From assembly GCA_025399215.1 (NCBI GenBank), contig MU621282.1, positions 1 through 33,441 of the forward strand: a stretch of 33,441 nt of DNA, given 5' to 3'. The position numbers and the translations under genes were made by a program. The DNA is from Globomyces pollinis-pini. Lineage: Eukaryota; Chytridiomycota; Chytridiomycetes; Rhizophydiales; Globomycetaceae. This document shows positions 2,340 through 33,144 of the stretch, piece by piece. Within the stretch, counting starts at the first letter, position 1, and each line of letters begins with the position of its first letter. The notes below the pieces were generated by a model. That model ran no database searches, had not been told where the DNA came from, and saw only the letters and a list, made by a program, of their open reading frames with translations.

Positions 2340-5300
2340 ATGTTCACAAAAGCCATTGGATTAGCATCTCTATTAGCGACCGCAAACGCTCTTTACGAAC
2401 CACCAACATTCGATGACGCTTTGGTTTTTCCATTAAGTGCTGTTAGACAAAACTTGACCTTCATTCCTTTCACTGCCGCTCAAAGAGTTGAAACTGCAAA
2501 AAACATTGTTAATGCCTTCGAAGTTTACGGTAACAGATACACCAAATTGGAAGACTTTGGTGTGGATGCTGCTGCTGAAGTAAAAAAGATTGCTGAGAAG
2601 GCTGCCACTATGACTGATGATGAATTTCACAAAAGCTACTTGAAGTTGTTTGGATCCTTACGTGATGGACAGTAACCTTTTCTAATAACTAATTTTTAGC
2701 ACCGTATATTGGGCTCCAGCTCCATATGGATGTTATCTTTTCTACAATGCTGTCAGTTTCTCAATGATTGACTCCGCTGATCCACTCAAAGATCCAGTAG
2801 TTATTGTATCTGCACCAGTGGCTAGTCGAACTGCCCTTCGATTGAACCCTAAACTTGCTAACTTGAAAGTCGGAGAACGTTTGCTAAAGGTTGATGGCGT
2901 TCCATTCGCCAAATGGGCTGTAGACAATGCTAACTTAAATGGTGGTGCCAACATTCCAGCTATCTACCGTAATGCTTTATCTTCATTCCTTGGTAAATTT
3001 GCCAGTAGCAATCTTCCACCAGCTAAGGATTCGGTCACCTTCACTATTGAAAAGGCTGATAAAACCACCTACGACGTTGAAGCTTTCTACATTACTTTAC
3101 AAGATCAAGTCTGTATGAAAGATACTACTGAATTCTTGAAGAATCCTAATACTCACACTCCTTCCAAATCAGCTACTTCTCTCACTCCTAGAGAAATTTT
3201 GAACAAAGTTGCTGACCTTAAGGATGAAACCCTGCAGTACACTCCTACCTCTGAACCTTCCATTTCATACGCAGTCTATAAGCCTGAAAGTCTCAACATG
3301 GGAATTATCAAATTGGGAAGTTTCAGTACCAGTGTTCCTCCAGAATCTGCTTTCCTTCTTATTAGAGATATTGTTGTTAACAAACTCAGTGAAGTTGATT
3401 CCATCTTGTTCGATCTTAGATTGAATGGTGGTGGTTACCTTGACTTTGCACAATTACTCCCTCAACTTTTCATTCCTGACAATGTTGGTGTTACTGGAAG
3501 AGCTATTGTTACTGATGTCAACTTACGTTTCATGCCAACCCAAGGTGACAAGTATGGTGAAGCTGCCAAAAAGGCACAAAAAGGTGACAAGTATACTTCA
3601 AGTGTTATCTTAAGCCCTACTGAAACCCTTAACACCTATGGTCAATCCTACTTGAAACCAGTTGGTATTTTGAATGATGGTATCTGTTACTCATCCTGTG
3701 ATATTTTCTCTGCCAATTTCCAAGACAACAATGCTGGTTTAGTTTTCGGTGAAGATGGTAAAACTGGTGCTGGTGGTGCAAATGTCATTGATTTCAACAC
3801 TAATGTGGCAAGATATGGTAAAGCTGACTTTACTCCATTACCATTTTTCCAAAAAATGAAATACCCACTTGGTGTTTCTCTCGCTTTTGGACAAGTCGTT
3901 CGTGCAAAGGGCCCAAACACTGGTCGTCTGATTGAAAATGCTGGTGTTGATACTGAAATCATTGTTCGTCCTACTGTTGAAGATCAATTGGCTAATGCAA
4001 GTGATTCCCAATTCACCAAGATCGCCAACAAATTGAAAGAATATGGTGACAAAACAAAAAAGAATGGATTGTACTTCAAGTCTAAAGTTGATTATGCTGT
4101 ACAAGCATATCAAAACAACCCACTTTCTTTGGAAGTTACATCTGCTGGTATTTCAACTCTTTCAGTCACTGGTATCGTTGGATCTCAAGACTCCACCACT
4201 GTCAAAGTTGCTGATATTTCCAAGAAAGTCACTTCTACCTTTGCTGTTGACAATAAGTTACCATTAGGTAACCATGGATTTGGATTTTCTGGATTAGATA
4301 GTACTGGTAAATCCGTGTTAAGCACCAAGAGATTTATCCAAGTTGTCCCTGCTCCTGCTGACTACGTTTCTATTTCATCCACTCCTTTGGATCTCAATTC
4401 TAAATTCGGTGTTTACAATTTGGGTGCCAGTCTGAAGGATGCCAAACTTGGTTGGAACAAGGTTGGTAACACTTACATTGTTGGTGATGGTAAGAAACAT
4501 GTTAGTAACTTGGACACCAAGCTCAAACTTTTCATTAAACCTGCAAAATCAGTCAATATTGAACTTAATGCGATTGTGGATTCTGAAGAAGGTTACGATT
4601 TCTTCAGAGTTGGTTACACTGACAAAGATGGTGAAAAAGATTTGATTACATCAACTGTTGAAGGTAAAACTGTAAACGGTATCAGTGGTAAGAGCAAAGT
4701 CGCCCTCAAAACTTCTTTTGTTCCTAATGGTGCATTTGAATTGTTCATTTACTTCAATTCCGATACTGGTGTGGACGAAGCAGGTGTGACTATCAACTCA
4801 TTATCCTTGACTGGTGTATCTGCTGATGCTGGTTCTGCCACTAGCACCACTACTACTGCTGCATCTACTACTACCGCTGCATCTACTACTGCTGCAGGAA
4901 CTAGCACCGTTGCTCCAACCACTTCCGCTGCGACCGTCTCCGGAACAGCTACTCAATCTACTCGTGTTGGAACTTCCACTGGAGTCGCTACCCAATCCAC
5001 TAATGGAGTTGCCTCTACTTCTGTTACTAATGCTGCCACTGCTACTAATGCTGCTACTAGTACCAACGGTGCTACAGCCACCAATGCTGTTTCTTCCGCT
5101 ACTAATGCTGCTACTGGTTCAGTCTCTGCAACCAAAGCTACCGTACTTCCAACAAATGGTGACAATACCAAGCCAACCGGTACCGATGCCGTTGATTATA
5201 ACACAGTTGACACATCTAGTCCAACCTCAAAGCCATATGGTTCAGCTGACAAGGATGGAAAGGCTCCATATGGAAATGATGCTGCTCCAGCATACAACAA

Positions 5301-5367
5301 CAAGAATGATGCCAAGAAATCTACTTTCGGTGCTATCGGTGCTGTACTTGTTGCATTACTATTGTAA
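2340..5367 (+). CDS. Secreted GPI-anchored S41-family serine peptidase, copy A
   Basis: Exons 2340-2671 and 2700-5367 join to 999 residues across a 28-nt GT-AG intron with an ACTAAT branch-like site. The join gives DGH-TVYW, matching copy B (DEH-TVYY). In order: signal peptide 1-17 (MFTKAIGLASLLATANA), N-terminal domain, a PDZ-like stretch near 165-185 (LKVGERLLKVDGVPF), and the S41 core at about 300-500. The core carries DLRLNGGG and CYSSCD; the likely nucleophile is Ser442, in the position kept in copy B. Then come beta-rich domains, a Thr/Ala/Ser-rich stalk (about 830-945) and a C-terminal hydrophobic tail (FGAIGAVLVALLL) typical of a GPI signal. It probably cleaves extracellular protein at the cell surface. 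Codons are more GC-rich and biased than in neighbouring genes, suggesting strong expression. The S41 call is good; activity and substrate are unknown. Confidence 0.85.
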
Positions 5368-5583
5368 GCTGCTATTAAAATATAAATTTTACTTTCAATT
5401 AAAAGATCATTACGTTGTGAGCATCTGGTTCATTAATATTTATTGGGATGAAGTTAACAAATAGTTACTAGTAAAGTAAAATGTAATTAAGAATTGCAGG
5501 GATTCGAATTGTTCTTCATTTTTTCCCACTTCGCGTCACAAATGTAAATTGAAAAACAATGTCATGAAGACTGGGATAAATTA
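5239..5583 (+). repeat. Segment duplicated at 8668-9024 (S41 gene end and downstream flank)
   Basis: The last 43 codons of S41 copy A and about 215 bases beyond its stop recur at 8668-9024. The coding part and first 35 bases after the stop are nearly identical, with one 3-base deletion in the second copy. The flank is more diverged but clearly alignable, for example CACTTCGCGTCACAAATGTA in both. This records a duplication of the 3' part of copy A and its flank. Confidence 0.85.
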
Positions 5584-5642
5584 AACTAGGGCCAAATAAG
5601 CGGCCCTACTAAAGCTTAATACTTTTTTTCTTATTAAAATCA

Positions 5643-5793
5643 TTAATTTAATTCAGCAGATGAGGTAGTAGGCGTGGGGTTTGGTGTGCAGGATTCTATT
5701 AATAGATTAAAAAGATACCTACACTTAACAACATAGTGAAGAAAGCGGTAAATAATGACAACTTGATCTTGATTGTACGAACGAAGCTACGCC
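5643..5793 (-). pseudogene. Truncated relic of the Crinkler-type gene
   Basis: On the minus strand this matches the last 40 or so codons of the gene at 7449-8516, from LRxYNQDQVVIIYRFLHYVVK to the shared end TSSAELN-stop. Compared with that gene it has in-frame insertions totalling nine residues (eight after VVKC plus one extra Thr near the end) and loses the bases just upstream of the LR codons. Matching stops about eight bases further on, where a TAG stands in frame. All catalytic residues of the domain are missing, so it cannot be functional as an enzyme. The frame is still open, so the loss may be recent. Confidence 0.8.
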
Positions 5794-6200: not shown

Positions 6201-6258
6201 AATAACAAGGAATGGATAGTATGATAAGGAATAACAAGGAATGGATAGTATGATAAGG
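6201..6258 (+). repeat. 29-bp perfect tandem duplication
   Basis: The unit at 6201-6229, beginning AATAACAAGGAATGG, is repeated exactly at 6230-6258. It lies just past the stop of the minus-strand retropepsin-like gene, in its 3' flank. It looks like replication slippage. Confidence 0.9.
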
Positions 6259-6264
6259 CTAAGA

Positions 6265-7038
6265 CTATGATGTCCCGAGATACAAGAGACGTGGTTGTAG
6301 GGTCTGCGGTAAATATAAGCCAGAAGAAGTGGGTCCAAGGTTTAAAACACAATGACTTCGCCCAGCTTTAACCAATTTAGCGTACGAGGATTTTGGGCTG
6401 GGCAGCTGATCAATGGGAACCAGATCTCTCTCAGTTAAACCAATACTTTCCATGATTTTTTCCCAATTTAAGAACTTAAACCAGTGTTTCGTAGTGAGAC
6501 CTTCTTTTGCGCAGCTTGTGAAAGTACAACGAACCGCATCTGGGATAATATGAAAACGAATAACTGCATCGAGTCCTAGCACATTTGGCTGGTCTGGGGC
6601 AACTTTGACCAGCAACTTTGAACGCACACCTGCAATTGAAACATCTAACTGTGACAAATAGTTATACTTTTCACTTCCATCCCCGATTTGCGAGATGCCA
6701 ATCAAACTTGAGTGAGATTTCAATCCATAAAGCATAGCCCGATTACTGTTAATTTGCCTGGAATTAACAAAGGTAACTTACGAATAAGACGAACCAGTGT
6801 CAAGGTGAATTAAACTCAACTCTTCATTTTCCCCTAACCCAACCTCCAAGTGAACTTGATTGTCATTGACCACATATAGCTTTCCTGTATTGTTCACAAT
6901 AGCACCCGGAACTTCTGCTTTATTATCCATTAGGTGGTTGTTACTAGAATTAAGTTACTAAGCTTACCTATAAAAGCGAAATGATTTGGTTCTGCTTACT
7001 AACCATTGCCTCTTAAAAGGACGCCAGAATCGGTTCAT
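6265..7038 (-). CDS. Retropepsin-fold aspartic protease-like protein with mitochondrial-type leader
   Basis: Exons 6968-7038, 6782-6943 and 6265-6757 join to 241 residues across two 24-nt introns, both starting GTAAG and ending TTAATTC[TC]AG. Residues 69-76 (IHLDTGSS) carry the Asp-Thr-Gly of aspartic proteases. Residues 100-106 (SQIGDGS) sit where a flap would, and 137-144 (VLGLDAVI) match the hydrophobic-hydrophobic-Gly-x-Asp stretch that closes the retropepsin fold. Only one DTG is present, so the enzyme would work as a dimer, as in retroelement proteases and Ddi1. The N-terminus has many Arg/Lys and no acidic residue for 29 residues, and RFYSNN resembles a mitochondrial cleavage site. There is no reverse transcriptase or gag nearby, so it may be a domesticated retroelement protease. 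Intron 2 could instead end 12 bases later and stay in frame. Confidence 0.65.
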
Positions 7039-8667: not shown

Positions 8668-8793
8668 GGTTCAGCTGACAAGGATGGAAAGGCTCCATAT
8701 GGAAATGTTGCTCCAGCATACAACAACAAGAATGATGCCAAGAAATCTACTTTCGGTGCTATCGGTGCTGTACTTGTTGCATTACTATTGTAA
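8668..8793 (+). pseudogene. In-frame remnant of an S41 peptidase C-terminus
   Basis: 41 codons and a stop, nearly identical to the end of S41 copy A (GSADKDGKAPYGN, then KKSTFGAIGAVLVALLL), with one codon removed. It encodes only the linker and GPI-type tail; the signal peptide and catalytic domain are absent. It resembles copy A far more than the adjacent copy B, so it comes from a late duplication of A or of a lost third copy. Confidence 0.8.
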
Positions 8794-9024
8794 GCTGCTA
8801 TTAAAATATAAATTTTACTTTCGACTAAAAGAATCCATTACTTACATTGCGAGTATCTGGTCCATTGGTCTGTACTTTATTGTTATGTATCACCAAAAAA
8901 ATGGTAGTGAAAAGACTTAAAGATATAATTAAGAATGGCAGTGTGTTCAGATTGGTATCCCACCACTTCGCGTCACAAATGTAAATTAAAGAACAGACAT
9001 GCCATAAAGACTGGTATAAATTCA
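8668..9024 (+). repeat. Second copy of the 5239-5583 segment
   Basis: It aligns with the end of S41 copy A plus flank. Identity is very high to about 8830 and lower beyond, with small insertions. The left break lies at GGTTCAGCTGAC. Confidence 0.85.
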
Positions 9025-9528: not shown

Positions 9529-12513
9529 ATGAAATTAATATTTTGGATTGTTTTGCTCTTGGAAACATATGCAGTGTACACTCCTCCAGCTTTTCTCGAT
9601 GTCGAATTAGGATTCTTAAGTTCTACTCGTAAAAACATATATCCAATCCCTTATACTGCCCAACAACGATCGCAAATAGCAAATTCAGTTCATACTATGT
9701 TTCAACTCTATGGTCATCGTTATGCAAAGATGGAGGATTTCGGGACAGCAATTGATCCTATACCTAGATCTTTGAATCTAACAAAGACTGCAAGTTCAAT
9801 GAAAGACGCTGAATTCCATTCAAGTTTTATCGATCTATTCAAGTCATTACGAGACGAACAGTAATCGATTTCTTATTAACAATTACCCAGCACAGTATAC
9901 TATATGCCTGCTCCTCAAGCATGTTATATCACTACAACGGGACTGGGCTTTTCGTTGACTGGCTTATCAAGTGCAGAAGATCCAGTTGTTGTTGTTAGTA
10001 AATACACCAATAGAGAGAAAGTATTGGAGTTTTCACCACAGGTGTCTCAGGCGAAACTTGGCGACAGACTTTTGATGGTTGATGGAGTTCCATTTAAAAC
10101 CTGGGCAGAGCAAAATAAATGGAAGAATGGTGGAGCAAATCCCTCGGCTGTTATTCGTATTGCGTTGAATGAATTATTTACCAAAACACTTGTATCTGAA
10201 AAGGTTCCTGAAAAGGATTCTATTGTATTTACATTGCAAAAATCTGACAGTACAACCTATAAACTGGAACTACCATGGGTGACGATTGCCGACAAATTCT
10301 GTATTTCAAACGTAGCACCATATTTAAAAAACCCATCCTTACAACCACGATCTTTAATAGTACCCGAGTCAAAAGGTCGAACTTCATTGCAAGACATCAT
10401 CAATACAAATCGACAAGTAATCACTCGCCCTTTAAAGACAATCAATTATCGAGATACTCAAGAACCAAAAATTCAATGGGGTATTTTTAAAAAGAGTGAA
10501 GCAAACTTGGGTGTGTTACGAATCGGTAGTTTTAGTACATATCAATTACCAGAAGCTGCATTATTGATGATTCGAGACATTATATTCAAAAACCTTGCCG
10601 ATACGAATGGATTGCTGATTGACGTCCGTCAGAATACTGGTGGTTTAGTAGATTTGGCACAAATGTTACCACAATTGTTTATTCCAGAAAATGTAGGGAT
10701 AAAAGCAAGAGCCATTGCAAATCCATTAAATAAGAAGTTTATGGTGACTCAAGGTCCACATTGGGCTGAAGCTGCTAATCAAATCAACGATGGCGATTAT
10801 TATACCCCTATCGTAACTATTAATCCCAACAGTACCATCAGAAGATATGGACAAGTTTATCTCAAACCAGTTGGTGTTTTGACTGATGCAATTTGCTATT
10901 CAGCATGCGATATGTTTTCAGCTAATATGCAAGATAACGGTGCTGGAACTATATTTGGAGAAGATGTTGTTACTGGAGCAGGTGGTGGAAACGTGTTAGA
11001 TTACAGTTATATTGCGTCTTTACTACCAAACGATATGCAACCTTTGCCATTTGCTGATAAGCTCGCCTATGCTCCGGCATTGTCTATTGCTTGGGGTCAG
11101 TCGATCCGTATAGGGCCTAACGCTGGTCGAAGAATAGAAGGATTTGGTGTTACATCAGATTACATTGTCAGACCTACTCAATCAGACATTACCGGTCAAA
11201 ACAGTGATACTCAATTTGACCGAATTGCTGATAAGTTGAAAGAAATCGCATTAAAAAAGAAAAATGGAAATTTGGCATTCAAAAGTACATCATCTTACAT
11301 CATTCAAAATTATGTGGACAGTCCAATCAAGTTAGTTGTCAATTCAGTTGGGTTAAAGAAGATATCAGTCAAGGGTTTACATACTACTACTCAAGACACC
11401 AGTGTCACAATTTCAAATTTAATTGAACCTGTAGAGTCAACTTTTATTTTAGAAAACAATTATGAATTGGGAAACTATCAATTTGGATTTACAGCCGTTG
11501 ATGCTATTGGTCGAAGTATTTTGAATACTACCCGGTTATTGCAAGTGGTACTTCCATTAGAATCCTATGTCACTTTACCAAGAACACCTTTGACATTTGA
11601 AAACGCACCGTTTGCTATTTACAATATGGGAAGCTCTTTGGCTGACCCATCAGCTGGCTGGGTGTATAACAAAATCAATCAAGCCTATCAAATTGGTGAT
11701 GGTAAATCATATATCGAATACGTGAATACCAAACTTTCGCTATTCTGTAATGCTGGAACTAGTGTTCACATTGAAATTAAAGGATCTTATCAAACGGAGA
11801 GCCAATTTGATACTTTTAGAATTGTATACATTGATGACTTTGGCTTTCATGATCTATTGCCCAACAATGCTGTAAGTGGACAAGATACATTTGATATCAA
11901 TCGAGATATTATTACAGAAGGTCAATTTGAATTATTTTTTGAATTTATTTCTGATGGTGGTGTAAATGATCGAGGAGTTTTAATCGAAAAGTTTTCGATT
12001 TCAGATGCTAATGGGCCTGTGTTGAATACTTCGTTAAATCCAGTCACTTCAACTACAATCACTCCTACTTCAGTCAGCAATTCTGTATCAAGTTTGATTC
12101 CAACAATCACTACTATTTCAATGTCTACTACTGTTACTGAATCCTCTACTCTTAGTGATTTAACCCTAAATCCATCCGAGACAAGTGTAACGTCAGTAGC
12201 GACGACGTCTACACCTGTCTCTAGCTCATCATCTGCACCACCCCAAACTACTAGTACTAGATATCCCACTATTCTTGATTTTAACTCCCTATCAATCACC
12301 AAAACTGCCACCACTCAAATAGCAACTCTGACAGTTGGTGCTACAGAAAGTAGTACCACCAATATGAATTCAGAAGTTAAACCTCTCGTTGTAGATTTTA
12401 TGAACGTATCACAAAAATATCAGTCGTTTAGCAGGTTAAGCGTTGTTAGCAATATGGGTTTTCAAATATCAAAACCAATGTTAGGATTGTTCATCCTACT
12501 TCTCCAATTGTAG
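9529..12513 (+). CDS. Secreted GPI-anchored S41-family serine peptidase, copy B
   Basis: Exons 9529-9860 and 9891-12513 join to 984 residues across a 30-nt intron at exactly the codon position used in copy A (…DE-H-TVYY). The signal peptide is about 1-16 (MKLIFWIVLLLETYAV). The PDZ-like stretch is near 165-180 (KLGDRLLMVDGVPF). The S41 core has IDVRQNTGG and CYSACD, with the likely nucleophile at Ser448. A Ser/Thr-rich stalk covers about 820-930, and the chain ends in a hydrophobic GPI-type tail (LGLFILLLQL). It aligns along its whole length with copy A but is clearly diverged. Its codons are AT-rich like most of the window, unlike copy A. It probably shares surface localisation but differs in expression or substrate. 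Confidence 0.85.
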
Positions 12514-12608: not shown

Positions 12609-13508
12609 TCAGTTTGATTTTTGGGAGGCTTCGGTTGTACTTTGTTGGGTTGAGGTTGTTTTCTTTTCTTGATATGGGTAATGGAAGAAAATCAACTTAT
12701 CAAAGAATGGGAACAAGCATAGGAAAATAACATCAAAGAACATTGACACAAACGCAAAGAAAACACCATACGAGTAAAGTAGATGTTGCGGAGTTTGAAT
12801 CAACTGATAATACTTGATCCGGAAAATAAGGAGAATGCTGGATATTTGTAGAAAGAGATGTCCAGCAACACACAACCAAATAAATACTTTGAATACTCTT
12901 CTTAACCGGTCATAAGCTTTATGACCCATATCTAACTTTTTGAATAAAATCGAGTAACCATTCCAAACTCGAATATTGTCTAATAAAATAATGGTATATA
13001 AGATTCCACAAATCACAGCACCAGTTTGGAACATTTGAACTGTAGTCCAGTTATAGCTATTACAAAAGAACTAAGAATTAATTTAAAATGTGACAGTTAC
13101 ATCCAAGTCTATCAGCGGACCATCAGAAAAACGGGTTTGAAAGTTGATTTGTCTGCAATAGGTAAAATAGGACTGTGTAGTCCAATCGGTAGAATAAATA
13201 GATTCGATAGATTTTAAGTTTTCGGGACTCTCCACCAATCGATAAGAAAAGAAGAAAGTTCCAAAATTATAATCGAATGCTGAATTCAGAGTCTGAATGG
13301 AATGGTATGAAATAACATGATAAATATCTTGTAGGAACAGCAAACAAACGGAAATCAAGAAAGGAATGGAAAACAGGATATGGTAGAAGATGAGTCTTGG
13401 ATAATGAATGGATAACTTTGTCTGTGGTGAAATCGTTTTATGGGTGAACGTTGTCTTCCAAGAAACTTCTGGATTCTCTTCTTCTACAACTCTCTCGGCT
13501 ACTTTCAT
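12609..13508 (-). CDS. Orphan multi-pass membrane protein
   Basis: Exons 13101-13508 and 12609-13070 join to 289 residues across a 30-nt intron (GTAACT...TTCTTAG). The in-frame TAA inside the intron explains why two separate frames appear. About four membrane helices are visible: LIFYHILFSIPFLISVCLLF, MFQTGAVICGILYTIILL, VFKVFIWLCVAGHLFLQISS and a long one starting at LLYSYGVFFAFVSMFF. An extended loop after the first helix holds two Cys that could pair. The N-terminus is acidic and the C-terminal tail (KKTTSTQQSTTEASQKSN) is Ser/Thr-rich, so probably cytosolic. It converges on S41 copy B and diverges from the MFS gene. I do not recognise the family. Confidence 0.7.
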
Positions 13509-14057: not shown

Positions 14058-15547
14058 ATGGTAATGCACATTGAATTGTTGGCTAAATCGCGTTTTACAA
14101 TTTTTTATCACTTGAATGAAATGGAAAACCAAATCTATTCAAAAAAATTACAAATCCTTTATTTGTTATCGTCAGTTATACCAGAAGCTATCTTTGAGCA
14201 TATTATTGGTCCATTATACCCTTATATAGTCAGGCATCTCTTACCAAATGAACCAGAAACAAACATTGGATTTTATACTGGACTGTTAGGATCAGCTGTT
14301 AATTTACCTCTTTTAGTAATGAATTTAGTTTGGGGGAAATTCTCTGATATGTATGGACGAAAACCAGTATTAGTGATTGGATTGGTTGGAAGTTGTATTA
14401 TTTCAATATGGTTAGGACTTAGTGAGTCTTATACAGTCACATTATTATCAAGGCTTGCATCTGGTTTATTCTTTTCAAATGCAACAGTAGCAAAAGGAAT
14501 GATTGGAGATATTGTTCGAGATCAAAAAACTAGAACTTGGGGTTATTCAATGTATGGTGCTGTCTATGGAATATCCGGAATAGTTGGGTATTTAATTTAT
14601 TTATCTCATTATTAGACCATTTATTGGTGGTTTCTTATCAAACCCCACAGTACTATATCCAACTGTATTTCCAAAAGAAGGATTCTTTGGACGGTACTTT
14701 CAAAATAATTAAATTTAGATATCCTTATTTATTAACTTGTATTACAGCTGCAATCATATCTGCAATTGGATTATTTATCACAATATTTCTGTTAAAAGAG
14801 AATCATACTGAAATACAACTGGATCAAGAGAATATAGGTTTAATTGATTTAAATCAACAAGAAGATTTGAAAATCACAAATGTACTTGAACAAATAGATT
14901 TAAATGATACTACAATGTCAATCACAATTGAACATATCAATCAAGAATCCAATGAATTTGATTTTAAAAGTTGGAAAACATTATCACCAATCTTTTTATA
15001 TTGTACACTTACTTTAACAAATCAAATTTACTTTACTTCATTAACATTATTTTTTTCTGCTCCAACTTCACATTTTGGATTAGGAATGTCATCAAAACAA
15101 ACTGCATTATCATTTACTTTTTTATCAATCAGTTCAATATCTGTACAACTTTATTTTTTTAAACCTTTAATGGCTTATTTTGGATCTTGTAAGAAATCTT
15201 ATCAAGCAGCTTTAATTTGTATTTTACCAATGCAATTAGCTATTTTATTTTTACCATTATTATCTAGTCATTTACAATTGATTGGAATTGCAATGATGAT
15301 GTCATTAGGTGGAATGGCAGAAAGTTTAGGTTATCTTAGTGTCATGATGTTAATTACTGAATCTCAACATCCAGATAATCTTGGTTTGACTCATGGTTAT
15401 GCTAGTACTCTGGCAGCATTGGCTAAAACTTTTGGACCTGGTTTAAGTGGTTTTATGTGGCAATATGGTGTTAGAATTGGTTGGCCATGGTTAGTATTTT
15501 TTATGGCTTCAAGTGTAGCTCTTATTGGGATTATAGCTGCAGATTAA
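14058..15547 (+). CDS. Major facilitator transporter, DHA1/ZIFL-like
   Basis: Exons 14058-14587, 14616-14693 and 14719-15547 join to 478 residues across introns of 28 and 25 nt. The splicing is confirmed by conserved sequence across the joins: GIVG-PFIGGFLSNP and FFGR-YPYLL. The protein has the 12-helix plan. MFS motif A is WGKFSDMYGRKPVL between helices 2 and 3, SRLASGLF marks helix 4, and the central loop is acidic and disordered (NHTEIQLDQ to NEFDFKSW). The sequence resembles the fungal and plant DHA1 proteins related to zinc-induced facilitator, which export small molecules or metal chelators by proton antiport. The substrate here is unknown. The real start may be the later ATG of MENQIYSKK, since the first 22 residues look poorly conserved. 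Confidence 0.85.
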
Positions 15548-21418: not shown

Positions 21419-24400
21419 ATGGCGAAGAAAGAAGACAAGTCTGTAAATTATTTCAGTTACATTGCCGATGGAGCTGCGTTTATAATAGTATTGACTGGTA
21501 AATATCTCCAACAATTTGTCTAACTATTTAGCGATCGTCTTTATCATTATACAGTCTCAATTATCATCATGGAGAACAACTCCAGAAGTAACCGTGTCAA
21601 AAGTTGTAAATAACGTGTATGAGAAGGAAAATTATGTAGATGTGTCTAAACCAACTTATCCAAAGAATTGGGATTATTCAAATATGTTTGCTGATGAGAA
21701 TGATTCGGAGGAAGAAACTCTTAAAGTACCTGTTGCGCACAAGACCCCACAAGATTCTATTTGGAGCCAATTGAGTCAATTTTTGGCTGATGATGATGAT
21801 GTTGTCGTTGATGATCAATCATCGTCTAATAATAATTACTTTAACTGGGGTAGCTTATTTGTAGACTCTGAAGAACTTGAAGAGAAAGTGCAACCAAAGA
21901 AAGTGGTAAAGACTGAAAGCAAAGGGACCAAATCAAAAGTAGCTAAGAAAGAATCGTTCAAAAACTGGATGAAGAATGTTTTACCAGCAGACCCTGAGGA
22001 ATTGAATTCTCAAGAAGGGCAGTTTGATTGGGATGTCATTATAAACTCATTGCTTGTTACCGATGAAGAAATAGAGCAACCAACTGTAAATAAACAACAA
22101 TCTGTTGAAAAGAAAATGAAGGAAAACATTCAAAGCCTTTTAGAAACTCGACGCACAAAAGACAAAGAATCGCAGAAGTCTATGCGAGCTAAAAGCAAAC
22201 CTGTTTCCTCAGGAATATTTGCTGATGAAGACCTGAATACTCCAATAGATGGTGAAGAACTTGTACATGCAGTTGATTCTGTAAAGTCAACTGTAAAATC
22301 AGCAGTGGAAAAGTTTATGGGTTTGATTCAACAACAACACATTCAAAGCCCAAGTCAAAAGAAACAATCCACCAATCCTTTTAATATTTTTGTAGGCGAA
22401 TCTGAACCTGATTCAAAACGAAATGGGGGAGGTACACTCACTAACGTAATCTAACTCTAGGTGTAAAATCAGATAATAATAATCCATACTCGTACTGGGG
22501 AGATCTGCTAACTGGAATTTTTGCAGATGAAGACCTTGAAGTGGGTTCTAAACAACAATTAAACAAATTGAATGGATACGTAAACAAAGTATATGAAGGT
22601 GAAGATACGGTTGTCTTGCCTTTTGTAAACAGCGTTAAAGATGCATTTACTAATTTTGTGTTTTCTGTTCAAAGTCTAATGGTTGATTCTGATGAAACTG
22701 AAGATGTGACTGATTCAAACCGTATTACTGACAAGAAAGAATCTGTGACAAGAGAAAATGAAAATATGAAGCCTGCTAAACGTAGCGACAATGCTGAAGA
22801 TTCGTTTGATCTTAAAGATGTTGAAAAACTTACCCAAAGAATGCAAGCTTTGTTAGGCGGAGAAAAACTTAAAGACGAACGTAAACCACCAACAAAACAA
22901 ACAGATACAGCTGCCACGCTTCGAGCACTTCTTGAAAATATTCTGGTAGAGGAAGGAAATGAAGATGAAAAGGACGTCAACCATCCCATGAAAAATGTGC
23001 TCAATTCCCTCTTTGTTTCAAACGACGATAGTTTACCCGAAAAGAGAGAGGTATACGAGAAAAAAGGAAATAAAATCAAATTCCCAACCACTGCTGGAGT
23101 AAATTCAAGAAAAATAACTGATTTTCTTTCAAACATCTTGGCCGAAGAAAATGACAACGGTGACGAGATCGATCCCGAGTCTACAGTTGGGAAATTTATG
23201 AACGGGATCTTTCCATCGGAGTCTGAAGCACCTATTACATCTTTCGAGACTCCCAAGTCGACTTTCTATCAATCCGATTCCAATCCATTAGCAGCAAAGT
23301 TAAAAGCTATGGCACCGCATTTTGATTTGGCGAATTTTTTGAAGAATACTTTAGTCGAATCAGATCAAAATGATGAAAATGATTCAGAAAACATTTCTTG
23401 GGACCTCATCAAGAACATTTTTCCTGAAGAGATGAAACAAAAGTCAGAAACGTTCACACAAAAACCAACTGTAGTGAATCCAGGCAAGAAATCAGTTTAT
23501 TCAAATTTACAAAATATGGATATAGAAACTATACTGAATCGTGTCATGGTCCAAGATGATACAGAAGACAACAGTGAATCAGTTAGATTAAACTGGGATT
23601 TAATCAAAACCCTATTCCCTGACGATGAACCCCTTAAAGATAAATCTGCCAAACCAATTCCAGCAAACAATAACAATAAACCAATATCCGATGCCAATCC
23701 ATTGGTAGCAAAGTTAAGGGCTCTGGCACCTCATCTTGATTTGGCAAACTTAATGAAAAGCGCTTTGGTTGAAGGATCAATTCAAGATGGCGATAGCGAA
23801 TCTGAGGAGCAAACTTGGGATTTAATCAAAAACGTTTTTCCTGACGAGACAGTCAAAGAAACTATCGAGTTACCAGCACAGAAACCTGAATCAGTCAAAC
23901 CAGCCAAAAAACAGATTCATCAAAGTTTACAAAATATTGACATAGCTAGTCTATTGAATCGTATTATGGTCGAAGATGATTCAGACGGCGACAATGAATC
24001 CGCCAGTTTAAATTGGGATTTGATCAAAAACTTATTTCCCGACGATCCAGCTAGCGAATCATCTAAATCTAAACCTATCCCAGCAGTTAAATCGATTCTT
24101 AAAACCAATGGCTTAAAAAATAATTGGCAAAAGTTCTTACAACAAATGATGGTCACTGAAGATGATAGTGAACTTGAAGTAAATCTAAAAAACATTGCAA
24201 ACTCAATAACTCCAGAAAGTGATGATCTTGATACTTTGCATACCAAAACCAAGTCAAAAATGGAACGTGGATCTCAAATTACTCCAAGTCTAACCAAAGA
24301 AAGACCAGTAAAAGATGCCCCCGAACTAAAAAGTGCACCGAAAAAAAGTCAATTGGACGGAAAGTTAAAAGATTCGTCTTTAGATCTACTCAATGTATTA

Positions 24401-24997
24401 CAGAATATGTTGGCGGCTAATCCTGATGGTCAAATTGACGATGAATCCACAAACAAAATCTGGAATGATTTGAAATTTCTTTTTCCAAATGAAGTAGAAG
24501 AAGAGAATTTAGCTATCAAACCTCAAAAAAATCAAGAGGAGTTTGTTGAAGTGGAAGCACCATTGAAAGAGGTTAATCCATATTCAGATCTGGCCAACAA
24601 ACTAAGTGGTTTATTGAGTGGATTAAAGGATGTTGGAAGCAATCTTCTAGCAGATGAAGCAGAGGATGAAGACCAAAAGTCGACCATGAATGATTGGGTT
24701 AAACGATTTTTCCCTACTGAAGAGGATGTCCTTGTTGATCAAGGAGCAACCAAGAAGCCAAAATCCGTAGAAAATGACAATAAATCGTCAAGAAAAGCCG
24801 CAAAACCGGGTACGCCAGTTGTAACAAATGGGGAATCGAAGTCATCAAATCAAGGTAAATAATGCCCTAGCTAACAATAAGGGAAACAATTAAACTCCGA
24901 TAAGCGTAATCAAGTTAGGAACATTTTAAATCAAGGAATTGATTTGAGTCATTTGAAGAACACTATTGATAAAGTGTATAACATTATTAGAGCATAA
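21419..24997 (+). CDS. Membrane-anchored acidic protein with many W..LIK.LFPD motifs (unrecognised)
   Basis: Exons 21419-21497, 21532-22431, 22461-24854 and 24882-24997 join to 1162 residues; introns are 34, 29 and 27 nt, the last ending ATAAG. A single hydrophobic helix (about 19-33, AAFIIVLTAIVFIII) follows a short N-terminus with three Lys. The rest is acidic and polar, probably disordered, and is studded with at least twelve short amphipathic motifs. Examples are SWDLIKNIFPEE, NWDLIKTLFPDDE, TWDLIKNVFPDE, NWDLIKNLFPDDP, IWNDLKFLFPNE and NDWVKRFFPTEED. More degenerate forms occur near the N-terminus, such as WSQLSQFLADDDD. Part of the array is a tandem duplication of about 139 codons. I know no family with this plan. 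The regular motifs suggest an array of docking sites on a membrane-tethered scaffold. Confidence 0.75.
23276..24110 (+). repeat. Tandem duplication of about 139 codons inside the W-motif protein
   Basis: Two adjacent units start at NPLAAKLKAMAPHFDLANFLK and NPLVAKLRALAPHLDLANLMK. Each carries one SWDLIK/TWDLIK motif, an LQN[MI]DI box and one NWDLIK motif in the same order. The W residues repeat at 139-140 codon spacing (residues 640 and 779; 705 and 845). DNA identity is moderate, so the duplication is not recent. Confidence 0.8.
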
Positions 24998-25143
24998 GTT
25001 TCCAATGCAATAAACCAATTCAGTCTTACAAGCTGTTTCTTTGTTACGAATAGTTGATGACATTCTATGTGTAATATTCTGTGCATGAGGCGATTTGGGT
25101 ACATAAAGTTTCACGTCCAAGAAGGAATTCTTTCCAAATAATC

Positions 25144-25917
25144 ATGCCAAATGGATTCGATATTTGCTATGTTTTAGCACTAGCCTTCAATAGCTTCCTG
25201 CTGGGGACCATAACTAATAATGGCAAAGTTATATCTAATTTGTTGATTATCTTGCTACTGTGCAACATCTATTACTGTCTCATAAACACCTTTAAAGCAC
25301 TTTCCTTCCAATTCATAACACCTTATTCTACTCTGTGGTTCATATTACAAGCGTGCCTGATAGGAGTAGATGCAATTTCTGGTTTTGCTTTCCAATCGTG
25401 CTACATTCTACGATTGCAGCCGTTTTTTAGGGAAGAGTTTAAGAGGAGATTGCTCTGGATTTGGCTTATATTACCTGTGTTTTATTCAGTCGGCGCAATA
25501 GTTCAACTGGTGAAACTCTTTGATGCATCTACGGACACAAACCTTTCACAAACCTACACATTTTTATATGGTAAAATCATGCTATATTAATCAACAGGAA
25601 ACGCATTATTCGCTGGATTGGATTTTTTCCTCCATTGTCAACTTTGTTGGTTGACCTATTCACTATTAAAGAAGAAAGTAGCATACCGTAAACACATAAG
25701 GAAAACTTTGATCCTTTTCTTACCAAGTATAACAAGTATCTGCTATTTTATAATCACCATCTATTCAATGAATGATCAAAGCTTTGGGGGAGGACCAATC
25801 TACTTATTTTGGTCTTTTGAAACAGCTGCATTCTTGATTGTTAATAATATTATTCAAGTCTACATCACATTCATGGATACGGTGATCAACTACGAAAGTG
25901 ATGATATACCCGTTTAA
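25144..25917 (+). CDS. Orphan seven-helix membrane protein
   Basis: Exons 25144-25570 and 25598-25917 join to 248 residues across a 27-nt intron (GTAAAA...CAACAG). Seven hydrophobic helices can be laid out: FDICYVLALAFNSFLLGTI, VISNLLIILLLCNIYYCLI, LWFILQACLIGVDAISGFAF, LLWIWLILPVFYSVGAIVQL, FLYGNALFAGLDFFLHC, LILFLPSITSICYFIITIY and FWSFETAAFLIVNNIIQVYI. The loops are short and the C-terminus is acidic (NYESDDIPV). The plan is compatible with a small receptor- or opsin-like fold, but there is no retinal Lys context or DRY-type motif, so no function is claimed. The first in-frame ATG was chosen; the frame upstream has only a GTG. Confidence 0.7.
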
Positions 25918-25924
25918 TTATGTA

Positions 25925-25930
25925 AATAAA
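25925..25930 (+). terminator. poly(A) signal AATAAA of the seven-helix gene
   Basis: AATAAA starts eight bases after the TAA stop. Confidence 0.45.
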
Positions 25931-26099: not shown

Positions 26100-29000
26100 A
26101 TGCGCAAAGTATTCACGGAAATATTTCAAAGAGCTTTAGAAGATACTGGAATAATTGGTTCAACAGACCAATCATCAAACGAAGAAAACCAAGGTAATAT
26201 GCTAAAATAATTAACTCCAAAAGATACTAAATATCCGATTGTTAGCAATTTAAACCAAAGCAAGTTTGTTTCCAATATTACAGGTAAAGATTTCGATTAG
26301 AATACTAAATATCAGAGTCTCTTAGTAAATCCCCAATTACAACTCGCAAAAATTCCACTCATCAAACAACGTCGGTACCAATCAGAAAAAATTCACTACT
26401 ATCTCATCATTTTGATAAAGACTCGTATGCCACATTAAACGAATCTCATGCAGAGAGCTCCAGCCAAAATGTAAATCATATAATGCTAATTTTAGACTGA
26501 TGTGACCAATAACCAGAACAAGTGGAATTTTGATATACTGCCTCCATTCAGCAAGTTGTCCAAGCCAGATTATTATTTATCAAAATCGTCTTCATTTATG
26601 TTTACGCCGTTCAAATCCTTAGATATGCAAGAAAAACGGACCAGCACAACCAGTACAAACCATGAAAAAGGTAATAATGCCATAATAGTCCCTGACCAAG
26701 TAGATGGGCCATTGATGGATCTTGATGATCCAGAAGACTTTGTGTCAAGTAAACTTGGGATAAAACTTGTTGCTGAACCACTTGAAGAATCTAATTTGGA
26801 AACATGCTCCAATGAAGATTGGGTATCAGCTGGTTCGATCGGCAGCCAAGAGCCATTTGATGAAACGGAACTTTCGGATGGACAAAGCGGACAATTAGAA
26901 ACTGAAGCACAAGTCGAATTAGAAAGCGAAGGGGATCAAGAGGAGGAAATAATGGATAAAACTGAAGATGAGGAAATACTCGATAACACTGAAATACTCA
27001 ATAACACCGAAGAGGAGCAAATACTCGATATCACAGATGAAGAGCAAATACTCGATAACACAGATGAGGAGCAAATAATCGACAACACTGAAGAAAAGCT
27101 AGACAATCAAACCTCGTCAGATACAGCTCTAAGTGCAGATGAGACGGCAAATGTTAATGTTATAGAATTGGTTGACGATTCTATTGACCAAGATTGTAGT
27201 GGTAAAGATGATGATGAAAATGAGATAAATATTCAAAAAGGATCAGATACCGAGAATATTTTTGACACAAATAACGACAAAGAAATTGAGGATGAACAAA
27301 ACGCGAGTGAAAATTCATATGAAGGTCAGAGTGAAGAATTAGATGGTTCAGCAAACGGGAGTCAATATGAAGAGAACATTATTGAAAAAGATTTAGAAAT
27401 CAAACGATTAATAGAAGAAAATAATGAATTGAAAGACTCCAAAAGCAATGAAAAAATTTCATTCCAGGTTCTTTTCATTTCATTGACAAATAGAATACAA
27501 TTTTAGATTTGCAAAGACAATTAAACTATACGTTAAATGAGTTAAATACAAAGACTCAAGAGTTTCATTCTACTGAGGCACAACAAGAGCAAAACATGAA
27601 CGAAATAATTCAGGAATACACTGAAAAGATTGATGAAATAGAAAAAAGATTGAATGATTCGGAAATGTTAAAAAATGAATTCAAAACAAAAATGAAATTA
27701 CTGGCAGACGATTTAAAGAAGCAAAACCTTCTTACTAAAGAATTGAACCAACAGCTTGAAGCCGAGAGAACCAAGTCCAATGTATGAAACTGTTTCTAAT
27801 ATCAGGAAACCATTGTCCGATTTCATGAATCAGAATCAGCAAAATCAAAAATAATTCAAGAAAAGAATTCTGTTCATGAAAAATGTATTTCTCTTGAAAA
27901 AGAGCTGTCCAAATTAAAAGCTCACGTAAAATCAAATGATCAGACTATTGAAAAGCTTCAAAGACAAGAATCCAAAACCAGTGATGAGAATGAAGAATTA
28001 AAATCCCAGATAAAGTCGCTTAATATCGATATTGAAGATGCTAATGATACGATAGAAGCACAAAAAGATATCATACTGAAAGAAAAACAATCAAACAAGG
28101 TTTTTTTTTGGATAATATTAAAACTATTAGACGCTAGTCAAGCAAACAAAAGAATTCAGCAAGTTGCTGAAAGAATCAAATAAAGAATTGGAAAAGACTA
28201 CAAGTGAATTGCAAGAGTTAAAATGTAAATATCAGGGAGAGTTGGAATCAAACAAACAATTGGTTGTATCTATCAAAGGATATGAAACAAAACTGAAATC
28301 CAGTGAAAAGACAATTGATGAGAAACAAGCCAAATTTACAATGCTGCAAGAAACTATTGTCAAACTTAAAGCTCAAAAAGACAATTATGAATTAAAACTG
28401 GAAAAAGAAGATAAAAAACAACAGGTAAGAACTATATGTTGATATAAAAGTCTCTAATTGGAAAAATTAAACAACTCAGGGAACATATTGAGGAACGAAA
28501 CGAGATCAACCAACAAAAATCTGATGAAATCGATACCATGACAACTCAATTGAGAGAAAAAGACAATTCACTGGAGCGGAATCAGAAGGAAATAGAGACA
28601 ATAAGAAAAGATTTGGAAAAAATGGAGTTGAAGCTACGAGAAGAAGAAAAATCTCATCTTGTAACCACTCAATAATAACAGTAGACAACCAAAGAAAATT
28701 CTATTGATTTACAAAAGACGTTATCAGGATGTTTAGACGACATAGCAAAACTGGCATCCAGTAATCAAGCATTACAAATCCAATTGGTTGATCAAGAGAA
28801 TAGTATGATGTCACGGGAGAAATGCTTCTCTGATACAATTCAGCAAGCAGAATCCAAGTTAATTGTATCGGAGCATATGAACGTAGAATTAAAAGCAAAG
28901 TTGGAAATTTTGAAGGAAGAAATAAAATTATTAGAGACTGTACAAAAGGAAATGGAATCAAATGGTATGCAAGCCAAAAAAGCTTTTGAAGTAAGTTTGT

Positions 29001-31186
29001 AGAAAATAGTAATTTTTCAAAGGATCTTGAACAGGAAAACATAAAACTCAAAGGGGATTTGGATGAATCCATGAATCAAAACAACATTTTGACCTGCAGT
29101 AATGATTCTCTGCAAACAGTCAATGAGCGAAACGGAAATATTTTTAAAGAAAAAGAAGTCATGTTTTTCAATAGTATTGAACAGGAGAAGTCTAAAAACA
29201 AATCATTGGAGATTTATAATCAAGAATTAGAGAATAAAATTAAGAAATTGGAATTGGAAAATAAAACTCTGAAAGAGGACATGAAACCAATGTATCAATC
29301 TTCACTTGATTTCCAAAACAAAATTCAACAGGAAAAGAATCACTATGAGGTTTGCAATCTTCACTAATGAAAATCCATAGAATAAATTGGTTGATCATCA
29401 TCATACTAAAAAAAGATTATCAGATGCATTGGTGAAGGTATCCATTCTAGAGATTGATAACCAAAACAATAAAACGCTCCACAAAAAACTTGAAAATCAA
29501 TTGATACAACTGGAAACAGACAAAGCTGGTTTGATTGCGAAACTGAATGAGCAACATGCTAATGCCACTAAACTAAAGCGTTTACAAGAGATGGATGAAA
29601 ATTATGAGAGATTATCAAATATCAATATCAACCTAACAAATGATTTGGAGCTGAAACAAAAAGAATGTGACGGAGTGTTTGAACAAAATAAGATATTAAA
29701 AGAACAATTGAAATTCCTTGAAACTTGTAAAAAGGAATTAACCAAAGAAAGATTGAAAAACAGAGAATTATCAGAAACGCTCTCCAAGTTTAAAGTATCA
29801 TACAAAGTGTTATCAGAAGAAATATTACTACGTAATCAAAAACTTCAAGAGCTACAAAAATGTATTGATAGACAAAAGAAGGATTTAGTACGGCAGTCTA
29901 CAGTGGTACATAGACAAAAAGAAATCATAATGGATTTGGTTAATGAAAGTGGAGATGACTTGGAAGTGGGCCAATTGTTGAAAGATAAATCAATGTGTGC
30001 AGAACCATCATCTATTTCAATCACCAACACAAGCAAATCTATTGAAACAGCACCTAACAGGGATGGTAGTGGCCATTCTAATGTACTTTCATGCAACTCC
30101 TTACAAATGGGTCGTAAGCCCATTACGTTCAGTGATTCTGAAATACAGTTGAATTCATTAAATGTGTCTCAAGAGGCAGTGAATGTTTCAGAATCAATAA
30201 CAGACAACAAAATTAAATTGTTGGAAGAGGAGGTTTGTCATCTAAGAAAGCATCTTTTGGCAATATCTAGTGATAAATTTACTGAATTAGAAAAACAAAA
30301 TGAACAGCAAAAAGCTATTATTAATCGCATGGATGAAGTTATCATCGATCTGAAGAAAACATTGGAAAAATTAGAAAAGTCAATGTCAGAATATCCAATA
30401 TTTTTGCTTTCAATGATAAACAAGTTTCAAGTCACCAGAAACACTGGAACTGTGAACAAAATTGGATCGAAAAATTATATCCAAGAACATATAGAATACC
30501 TACAGAACGTTTTAGCTGAATTGATTGATAAGCCAATGATGGTTGGGCAGTTAAAAGATAAACAAATGGACTCATCCCAAACACTAGTACGACACTCCAG
30601 TACGCTGAAAGAATTGGATGAACTTACCGATGATTCTAATCAACTACTTTTACAAGAAAATGAGAGTCTAAAGCGAAAATTGGACAGATTTCAAACAATG
30701 GCAAGAAAAATGAAACACATAATGTCAGAGCCAAATGATAAGCTTGAGAAAAAACTAAACTCAAACAACCAAATTAAGAAGAACTGGAGTATTTTGAGGA
30801 AATCAGTGGATAAAAGTCCTTCTGCACGGGGCGAAGAAGCAAATCATTTCAAGAAATTGGTTGGAGCTTTACTTAATTCTGCGGGTAAACTAAACAACAG
30901 AACCAGTGTCAAATCCAAATTATCAGATTACAATGGTTCTTCATTTCCTATGTTTTTAGACGTTTATGAGAACTTATTGGGCATTGCAAGGGGTGTACAA
31001 GTTGAAACTCGATTAAACAACATCTACCAAGCTATCTATAGACTTATAGGCAAGCTACAGCAGTTAGAGGAATGGAAAGAAAAATCTGAAGTGATTATTG
31101 CTGAAAGAGATGAGTTTGTAATGGGTCAGTTGGCGACTATACAGAAGATCGAGAATCGTATGCGACTCACTGGGAATCCATTATAA
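26100..31186 (+). CDS. Large coiled-coil protein, eleven exons
   Basis: Exons 26100-26193, 26224-26283, 26316-26470, 26496-27467, 27494-27781, 27806-28099, 28131-28424, 28451-28660, 28685-28990, 29023-29349 and 29381-31186 join to 1601 residues. Introns are 30, 32, 25, 26, 24, 31, 26, 24, 32 and 31 nt. Residues 1-240 are Ser/Thr-rich, 240-390 are very acidic with an EEQILDNTD repeat, and about 390-1330 is near-continuous heptad coiled coil (Glu, Lys, Leu, Gln). The C-terminal 200 residues are a more ordered helical region (SFPMFLDVYENLLGIARGVQ). The layout resembles centrosomal/basal-body or golgin-type scaffolds, but no GRIP, PACT or motor domain is visible. Intron 4 could also end 13 bases later, but only the first acceptor keeps the frame. 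Confidence 0.8.
26949..27103 (+). repeat. Acidic 10-11-residue tandem repeat (EEQILDNTD)
   Basis: At least five degenerate coding units run in tandem inside the coiled-coil gene: EEILDNTE, ILNNTEE, EEQILDITD, EEQILDNTD, EEQIIDNTE. The DNA units are close in sequence, so this is a likely site of length variation. Confidence 0.75.
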
Positions 31187-31194
31187 AGAGTAGT

Positions 31195-31200
31195 AATAAA
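31195..31200 (+). terminator. poly(A) signal AATAAA of the coiled-coil gene
   Basis: AATAAA starts nine bases after the TAA stop. Confidence 0.45.
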
Positions 31201-31329
31201 AACCAAAGAAATGCTTAAAAGGTAACACTTGAAATGTTAATTAAGAATGATGGTTTATTACATTATTATTATTATATGGATAGTGATCGTCTGATTTAAA
31301 TGTATACAGTTGAATGCACGAACCTTCAA

Positions 31330-33144
31330 TCACACATCTTGGATTGCTGAACTCTGTAAAATATTCCAATGAAAATTCATATACGGTTGTGGTTGTTGTA
31401 TATGTGGTTGGTTGAATGTGACGTATGTGTCCGTCATGGATTCAGTTCCAGAAAAGTTTATACCCAATAATTTACGAAATTCGCAAGAAACATTCGAAAT
31501 CATTGGATATTGCCAACTATTTTGTTGAACATCATTATAAATAATATTCCGTATAATATGAATTGCCTCCTGTCGATATGGAATATTGATTGGTTCCATA
31601 CTTAATCCTTCCAGAACTTTTCGAGAAATAAATAGAGCACTGATGGAGGTAATTGTTACTTGTATAGAATGCTGAATTGGTATAGCACTCCCTTTTAAAC
31701 TGTGTATATATCCAAGTGCTCTGATAGTTAGTAAGAGTATATCATGTGAAGAGTAGCTGACACCAGGTTCTAAATATTGAAATGAGTATGATTCAGAAAT
31801 TCCATTGCGAATAGCAGTGGTATGCAACATTGCCAAACATGCTAAATGCGTTCTGGTAGGTAATTGACTGATTGGTAGATCAGTATATGGCTTTGCTACT
31901 TGGCATGGTATTCCATTTAGAAATTCATCCAGTGATAAGAATGGTTTAAAAGTGTTTGGAATATCATTGAAAGTATGCAAGCAACTATTATGAAAATTAA
32001 AAACAATGACCAGCAATTCTTTATGCTGGTACATTGTTTTCTGATCCAAATGAAAGTGAATGATATTCCGAACAACTCTAAGGTTCTGCAGATGAGTATC
32101 CAGCATCTTTGGTGTAATTCCGGAACCACTTTCAGTTTTAATCCAATGGGAGTGGTTCATCACTGGATTTGCTTTGTTTATTGAAATAACAGGTGATTCC
32201 AAAATGGGTTTCACAGGTTCGAGCTGTTCTGATTCTAACACACATACAGTACCATTAATTAACGACATCAAAGAGTCCACTTTTAATAGTACTGCCAATA
32301 AGGCATTCAGTTGTAACGTATTCTCACAAGATTTGGGAGGTAATTTTGTTTGAAACGGTACAATTGGTGATTTGTTTGGATATTCGCTTGTAAAATTAAA
32401 TTTCATATTGGAAAACAATTCATACTTTTGAATTGTGATATAACTAAAATCTATACAATAAGTAAGTGTACAATTTTACATAACAATTTATAACCATCAT
32501 CCGAACTTCCACAAGCAAACCAATCCAAAGACTTTAATAGATGTTTATGAATCTGATCACAAACAACATTATAAGATTGTGGAGAATTCAGCATTCCATT
32601 AAAATTAAACTCATCGTAAATATTTCCAAAGTTCATCAATTTTGCAGATTTGAGTATCATGGACGATTGAATTTGTTGATCTTTTTCAGTATCTAAGTTT
32701 AAAACGGTACAATTGAATACATGGTCCAAATCGGTTCGGAATATAATCATCACTGTTGAGGGATTCTTCACTAGAAAATGAAGACCAACTGGTATATGCA
32801 GAGATTTGATTAGAATCGGTAAGGTTGAGATCAGAAGTATTTAAAACATCGTCCAAATCAAGAATTGGTGCATTGAGTGGGTTTACATTTGGAATTGCCT
32901 GTAAATAATTTGGACTGGACTTATTGTAATAATTCGCTCTAATATCAGTGAATCAATAAGAATACAAATTCATAGTGGTTTTATAAACACACGGTGGAAC
33001 ATCGAATCTCTTTGATTTGTTTTTGAATTGGATACAGGAATTACAAGGTAGTTGTCCATCACATTTCTTTTTCCGAGTTCTACAATTCTCTACTCATCAA
33101 CAAATTCAATTCCTACCACATGCTACTTTGATTTTTTGGGACAT
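31330..33144 (-). CDS. Zn2Cys6 binuclear-cluster transcription factor
   Basis: Exons 33117-33144, 32966-33089, 32721-32938, 32480-32692 and 31330-32450 join to 567 residues; introns are 27, 27, 28 and 29 nt. The first join completes the zinc cluster at the N-terminus: Cys9, 12, 19, 25, 28 and 43 in ACENCRTRKKKCDGQLPCNSC...PPC. The basic RTRKKK between Cys12 and Cys19 is the usual DNA-contact stretch. The last spacing (14 residues) is longer than the common six to eight. After it comes a Ser/Asp/Asn-rich region (about 50-125), then a helical region (about 180-500) of the kind that serves as the regulatory middle domain. Fungal Zn2Cys6 proteins bind CGG-containing sites; the target here is unknown. 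The first exon codes for only nine full residues, so it is easily missed. Confidence 0.85.

Follow-up and report, generated by a model that had tools for sequence, protein, structure and literature searches.

The genes of contig MU621282.1 of Globomyces pollinis-pini (assembly GCA_025399215.1), which belongs to a chytrid genus of the order Rhizophydiales, are interrupted by extremely short introns. The sequence evidence indicates that these are very probably ordinary U2-type spliceosomal introns that have shrunk to near-minimal length across the sampled genome. The window analysed here is the whole contig, 33,441 nucleotides (nt) long, and it is part of an 18.5 Mb draft assembly of 459 contigs with runs of N.

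Short introns restore the reading frames of the window

We rebuilt the introns of eleven genes, which gave 34 candidates, 33 of them in coding frames (Table 1). All eleven genes meet an early stop when left unspliced; once the 33 introns are spliced out, all are open from start to stop with no internal stop codon. The introns measure 24-34 nt, apart from one of 76 nt, with a median of 28 nt (24 nt, three introns; 25 nt, three; 26 nt, two; 27 nt, four; 28 nt, five; 29 nt, five; 30 nt, four; 31 nt, two; 32 nt, three; 34 nt, one; 76 nt, one). An earlier note on this DNA had described ultra-short introns across the window, and the eleven complete frames bear that description out. GTA donors are found in 30 of the 33 frame-supported introns; the note had counted 31 of 34, and the full set of 34 agrees with its counts. 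It had also stated that each join restores the frame and that four introns are exactly 24 nt long. The first statement stands for 33 of the 34 and the second for three introns with coding support; the exception to both is the candidate at 6944-6967, upstream of the start codon of gene C, for which no restored frame was found in the surrounding sequence. Frame and splice signals are the whole basis for the sites in genes C, D, H, I and J and for most of those in the zinc-cluster gene. A 39-nt alternative for the gene J intron at 27468-27493 was rejected, since it broke the frame.

Support from other proteins came from protein-to-DNA spliced alignments in which the only constraints were GT-AG ends and a 10-nt minimum; foreign proteins were aligned with four genes, three in the window plus that for U2AF35. 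When MTR4 was compared with the proteins of Spizellomyces, Batrachochytrium, Lichtheimia and Boothiomyces, seven of its eight introns were identical in all four alignments. The deposited MTR4 protein of Globomyces sp. JEL0801 agrees at seven junctions; at the eighth, a misread 29-nt intron costs it a DKSTKG segment present in the three further chytrid proteins of the alignment. The five introns of U2AF35 (25, 29, 30, 80 and 34 nt) were identical with all three foreign proteins used, and our hand-spliced product equals the deposited G. pollinis-pini protein BC833DRAFT_583768 at 263 of 263 residues (100%) across those introns. The deposited models compared (S41 and MTR4 of JEL0801, U2AF35 of G. 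pollinis-pini) thus use the short-intron sites, one MTR4 intron excepted.

Three joins that had been singled out as restoring conserved sequence were upheld. The alignment of the spliced MTR4 to a solved MTR4 chain runs from residue 51 to the end and is gap-free across SPIK/ALSNQ; the FFGR/YPYLL join of the spliced MFS protein falls within an MFS_1 match of 106.8 bits; and AC/ENC restores the start of a C-X2-C-X6-C pattern in the zinc-cluster protein. The S41 paralogues A and B each carry a single intron at residue 108, phase 2, and the intron sequences have diverged, so that these ultrashort introns either were already present before the duplication or have contracted in parallel. Peptidase B finds its best database match in a JEL0801 protein that differs from the window at a few residues, and from these differences JEL0801 is probably another isolate or allele.

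The same lengths recur across the genome sample

To the window we added 20 segments, each of 10 kb, drawn from 16 other contigs; the sample totals 233 kb. We searched it with a gene finder whose length prior was kept flat from 12 to 300 nt in training, so that no length within the range is favoured. With GT-AG ends and simple donor and acceptor terms, 50 of the 76 introns measured 24-35 nt, against only 1-8 of the 43-55 "introns" obtained with each of six decoy site pairs. Adding a branch term while keeping the prior flat placed 76 of 109 introns in that range. A first pass of the gene finder, with few training bases, had given many long introns, and a second at lower cost gave 156 with a median of 32 nt (94 in 24-35 nt, 29 of at least 150 nt).

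With a learned length prior we obtained 234 introns of 20-45 nt, with a 5-95% range of 25-34 nt, in 96 gene models of which 70 bear introns (1.9 introns per kb of coding sequence). Their median is 29 nt. A further 14 introns longer than 45 nt were predicted, mostly unverified. Under this prior the six decoy pairs yielded 45-79 introns, compared with 236 for GT-AG; in the three pairs re-examined, 76 of 79, 41 of 45 and 50 of 54 decoy introns lay on a GT-AG intron or within 15 nt of one, which indicates that the decoys bridge the same frame breaks. Genes outside the window agree: GFAT has seven introns of 25-34 nt, and its spliced protein aligns at full length with human GFAT, while SF1 has six introns and U2AF35 five, one of them of 80 nt. 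Decoys, spliced alignments and the sampled genome together support the reading of these segments as true spliceosomal introns of ultrashort length.

Splice signals and branch site

Among the 234 introns, 210 donors are GTA (90%) and 24 are GTT, and 192 acceptors are TAG (82%). Donor position +3 is A in 90% and +4 is A or T in 91%; the only weak positions are +5, where G occurs in 20-24%, and +6. On the exon side A occurs at -2 in 56% and G at -1 in 53%. The introns have a GC content of 26%. A YTNAY motif whose A stands 6-14 nt before the 3' end was present in 38 of 51 introns chosen without a branch term or length prior, whereas 1000 shuffles gave a mean of 20.3 and a maximum of 29. In the 217 introns with a scored branch, the median distance of the branch A is 9 nt to the 3' end of the intron and 19 nt to its 5' end, although placement of the A is a model call and the tail of the distribution probably includes misplacements. 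The acceptor is the first AG downstream of the branch A in 199 of the 217.

The splicing components found look canonical

A search of the genome recovered U2, U4 and U5 small nuclear RNAs above the Rfam cut-offs. U2 keeps the canonical branch-pairing GUGUAGUAUCUGUUC (GUAGUA) and U5 keeps its loop CGCCUUUUACUAAA. Introns of 25-31 nt split the SF1 gene, and the KH GPRG loop and the two zinc knuckles are among the elements that they interrupt. Once spliced, the protein matches the families SF1-HH, KH and zinc knuckle as well as solved SF1. U2AF65 matches its solved relatives over the RRM pair and the C-terminal domain (the N-terminal part is outside the model), and U2AF35 matches its own. The genes for SF1 and U2AF are themselves interrupted by introns of this short class. 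The U2, SF1 and U2AF components that the earlier note had proposed to compare are present and ordinary-looking, and its idea of a spliceosome adapted to very short introns is not demonstrated by the parts found (U2, U4, U5, SF1, U2AF65, U2AF35).

Both U2AF subunit genes also contain a longer intron, of 126 nt in U2AF65 (L029:1378-1503) and 80 nt in U2AF35 (L035:1426-1505, minus strand). MTR4 likewise has one of the rarer longer introns (76 nt). Those of the U2AF genes are possibly regulatory.

Stopless introns of three-fold length may be depleted

The length is a multiple of three in 11 of the 33 window introns and in 65 of the 234 sample introns. Every one of these has an in-frame stop (11 of 11 and 65 of 65), compared with 101 of the 169 sample introns of other lengths. 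Because stopless three-fold introns are easily read through as coding sequence by the gene finder, we calibrated it on the stopless introns of other lengths, a quarter of which score better as intron than as coding sequence. On that model-based footing 10.9 detectable stopless three-fold introns were expected and none was seen (Poisson 2e-5). In a scan of exons, a weak test with a score threshold reached by 156 of the 234 introns, 14 intron-like segments of three-fold length were found, where the other two length classes gave 2 and 10; restricted to negative coding score, the counts were 7, 1 and 3. The 30-nt intron of U2AF35 is three-fold, stopless and homology-supported, so any depletion falls short of a ban. 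These results suggest a several-fold depletion of stopless three-fold introns and not their absence, a lead and no proof. The model-based deficit runs counter to the earlier view that lengths are not biased against frame-keeping. We also considered whether TAG ends serve as built-in stops. They occur in 31 of 34 three-fold phase-0 introns and in 72 of 89 other phase-0 introns, and since TAG is not confined to the former, this explanation was rejected.

Table 1. Introns rebuilt in the window, with the evidence for each site (gene spans in brackets)
Gene and intron	Position	Strand	Length	Evidence
S41-like peptidase A (2340-5367)	2672..2699	+	28 nt	frame; Polyrhizophydium protein, residue 108, phase 2
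Gene C (6930-6265)	6758..6781	-	24 nt	frame only
Candidate upstream of gene C start codon	6944..6967	-	24 nt	GT-AG and branch-like site; without frame support
S41-like peptidase B (9529-12513)	9861..9890	+	30 nt	frame; Polyrhizophydium alignment, residue 108, phase 2; deposited JEL0801 protein spliced here
Gene D (13508-12609)	13071..13100	-	30 nt	frame only
MFS transporter (14064-15547)	14588..14615	+	28 nt	frame; within MFS_1 match of spliced protein
MFS transporter	14694..14718	+	25 nt	frame; within MFS_1 match
MTR4 (19031-15657), SPIK/ALSNQ join	18487..18518	-	32 nt	4/4 foreign proteins; deposited JEL0801 MTR4; solved MTR4 chain
MTR4	18206..18281	-	76 nt	4/4 foreign proteins; deposited JEL0801 MTR4
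MTR4, missed in deposited JEL0801 model	17880..17908	-	29 nt	exact with 2/4 foreign proteins, shifted with 2/4; restores DKSTKG segment
MTR4, splits Met codon of GLNMPAKTVVF	17454..17482	-	29 nt	4/4 foreign proteins; JEL0801 MTR4
MTR4	17088..17115	-	28 nt	4/4 foreign proteins; JEL0801 MTR4
MTR4	16460..16488	-	29 nt	4/4 foreign proteins; JEL0801 MTR4
MTR4	16069..16093	-	25 nt	4/4 foreign proteins; JEL0801 MTR4
MTR4	15861..15888	-	28 nt	4/4 foreign proteins; JEL0801 MTR4
CH-domain protein (20006-21265)	20345..20374	+	30 nt	frame
Gene H (21419-24999)	21498..21531	+	34 nt	frame only
Gene H	22432..22460	+	29 nt	frame only
Gene H	24855..24881	+	27 nt	frame only
Gene I (25144-25917)	25571..25597	+	27 nt	frame only
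Gene J, coiled coil (26100-31186)	26194..26223	+	30 nt	frame only
Gene J	26284..26315	+	32 nt	frame only
Gene J	26471..26495	+	25 nt	frame only
Gene J, GTT donor	27468..27493	+	26 nt	frame only
Gene J	27782..27805	+	24 nt	frame only
Gene J, GTT donor	28100..28130	+	31 nt	frame only
Gene J	28425..28450	+	26 nt	frame only
Gene J	28661..28684	+	24 nt	frame only
Gene J	28991..29022	+	32 nt	frame only
Gene J, GTT donor	29350..29380	+	31 nt	frame only
Zinc-cluster protein (33144-31330), AC/ENC join	33090..33116	-	27 nt	restores C-X2-C-X6-C start
Zinc-cluster protein	32939..32965	-	27 nt	frame only
Zinc-cluster protein	32693..32720	-	28 nt	frame only
Zinc-cluster protein	32451..32479	-	29 nt	frame only

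The window also holds two pairs of similar stretches. Positions 8705-8832 repeat the 3' end of S41 gene A (5279-5406) with 98% identity, lying downstream and without the rest of the gene. Positions 5657-5786 and 7460-7571 are 80-93% alike; the second makes up the 3' end of a gene without introns (7449-8516), and the first may be a decayed copy.

Explanation and alternatives

If these are ordinary U2-type introns close to their minimal length, the whole intron would be recognised as a single unit. The branch and the TAG end would be bound first by SF1 and U2AF and afterwards by U2, and GTA(A/T) together with the last exon bases (AG) would be read by U1 and then U6. Shrinkage would have affected mainly the stretch between the 5' splice site and the branch. 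Retained introns would be cleared by nonsense-mediated decay, through a frameshift or an in-frame stop, and such decay would explain the scarcity of stopless three-fold introns.

Several observations weigh against this explanation. With the flat prior, 25 of the 76 GT-AG introns exceeded 35 nt, compared with 36-52 in each decoy run, so that a true minority of longer introns is possible. The introns of 76 nt (MTR4), 80 nt (U2AF35) and 126 nt (U2AF65) are homology-supported, and the machinery is therefore not limited to short ones. The deficit of stopless introns comes from a gene-finder model prone to reading through exactly that class. Finally, the draft genome gave no match to the Rfam model of U1, the only probe used for it, and no U6 with its Rfam model or with three sequence patterns, the second of which had four matches, none of them U6-like. 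Since the draft contains runs of N and neither family model matched in any control genome, a true absence of U1 and U6 is not established. U6 is interrupted by an intron in some fungi; here it would be either missing from the draft or interrupted in this way.

The alternative with most in its favour, possible though in our view improbable, is that the spliceosome of this lineage has been specially remodelled, with altered U1 or U6 or with U2AF replaced, as has been proposed for ciliates. The weak G at +5 looks as if pairing with U1 and U6 had been relaxed, neither RNA was found by models or patterns, and only about 19 nt separate the 5' splice site from the branch A. Yet every component that we did find looks canonical, from the GUAGUA of U2 and the U5 loop to U4, SF1 and both U2AF subunits, and a branch about 9 nt from the intron end resembles the 5-10 nt reported for yeasts such as Debaryomyces (PMC2483917).

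Recent introner-like insertion of a common element is very unlikely. It would fit the narrow size range, and the 234 introns share 69 internal 10-mers, where 50 shuffles gave a mean of 35 and a maximum of 57. But the most shared 10-mer occurs in only 3 of the 234 introns, which form no near-identical families; so modest an excess would be expected from AT-rich introns that have a branch motif in common, and the conserved intron position in the diverged S41 paralogues argues for age.

We give hardly any credence to a peculiarity of this contig in a genome of otherwise normal fungal intron lengths. The first observation covered 33 kb, and three homology-supported introns are longer; the same length peak nevertheless appears under the flat prior in the 20 stretches from other contigs, which refutes a local origin for the 233 kb, and GFAT, SF1 and U2AF35 on other contigs agree. 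In ciliates, short AT-rich segments of uniform size are also known as eliminated elements, and the segments described here are of that appearance. That they are DNA-level eliminated elements, translational bypass sites or sequencing or assembly insertions is equally hard to credit in view of their GT-AG ends, a branch motif far above shuffles, the spliceosomal RNAs and factors present, the joins shared by the deposited MTR4 and S41 proteins of the second isolate JEL0801, and the introns of S41 A and B, whose residue and phase are shared and whose sequences have diverged.

Returning to ordinary U2-type introns of near-minimal length, we consider the chances even that this fungus, free-living and rich in introns, has on its own arrived at the state of Paramecium. 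Nearly all its introns would then measure about 28 nt, with 19 nt between donor and branch, GTA...TAG ends and a relaxed requirement for G at +5; translatable introns would be selected against, and SF1, U2AF65 and U2AF35 would have been retained. In that case the lower bound usual for fungal introns would not be set by the core U2 machinery, and reading of the 5' splice site would have shifted towards GTA and the exon edge. A chytrid with ordinary branch-site factors offers a system in which to test minimal fungal intron length, the donor-to-branch limit and whether decay of retained transcripts shapes short introns, and a free-living fungus in which to ask how a standard splicing machine copes with near-minimal introns. 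There is also a warning for annotation: a pipeline that accepts no intron below 30 nt would lose 162 of the 234 found in the sample, and one deposited MTR4 model already contains an error at such an intron.

Comparison with known systems

In the papers examined, introns of this size are described from ciliates, nucleomorphs, mikrocytids and microsporidia, and in several of these groups the splicing machinery is reduced. The earlier note had named ciliates and nucleomorphs as precedents, a correct but incomplete list to which microsporidia (22-76 nt, PMC3629993) and mikrocytids (16-17 nt, PMC10245619) belong as well. In four papers that name the species (PMC13391722, PMC11797018, PMC9616733, PMC9698843), of which two never use the term intron, the passages on introns give no Globomyces intron length; that of PMC9698843 mentions a phase 1 intron in the TPPP genes of its class. 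We found no report on these introns in the portions of the literature searched, though deposited gene models contain such introns.

The narrow, very short class is shared with the chlorarachniophyte nucleomorph (18-21 nt) and the mikrocytid (PMC10245619, in its intron passages), but those are relict or parasite genomes, whereas Globomyces introns are longer and less uniform and lie in an 18.5 Mb genome. Encephalitozoon cuniculi is alike in its GT-AG introns of 22-76 nt (PMC3629993) and its CTAAYTT branch (PMC2483917). It is, however, a parasite that lives inside cells, and its spliceosome is strongly reduced (30 open reading frames; PMC3629993), whereas Globomyces has 234 introns in the 96 gene models of 233 kb, with SF1 and both U2AF subunits. 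Stentor coeruleus resembles it in the GUA intron start and the canonical GUAGUA of U2, but as described in PMC9505925 its introns are of 15-16 nt without a strong branch consensus, against 28-29 nt and a clear YTNAY here.

Among fungi, Blastocladiella emersonii has the same GT-AG ends and CTAAC-like branch, with introns of 55-333 nt (PMC2773782). Cryptococcus neoformans also uses GT-AG, but its introns average 56 nt, and it is reported to have the highest share of short (60-100 nt) and ultra-short (<60 nt) introns among the fungi compared (PMC11913375). Fungal U3 introns average 92 nt in the source consulted.

Paramecium comes closest. In P. tetraurelia and P. bursaria more than 95% of introns measure 20-34 nt with GTA/TAG ends, and translatable three-fold introns are in deficit, which is explained there by nonsense-mediated decay (PMC11334263); the medians are 25 and 24 nt (PMC12862383). 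Paramecium differs in belonging to another eukaryotic group, while stop-bearing three-fold introns are common in Globomyces, and P. bursaria donors lack a consensus from +3 to +6 (PMC12862383), unlike the strong +3 A seen here. On the figures in these excerpts, Globomyces introns are about half the usual fungal length or less, and nearly equal to those of Paramecium.

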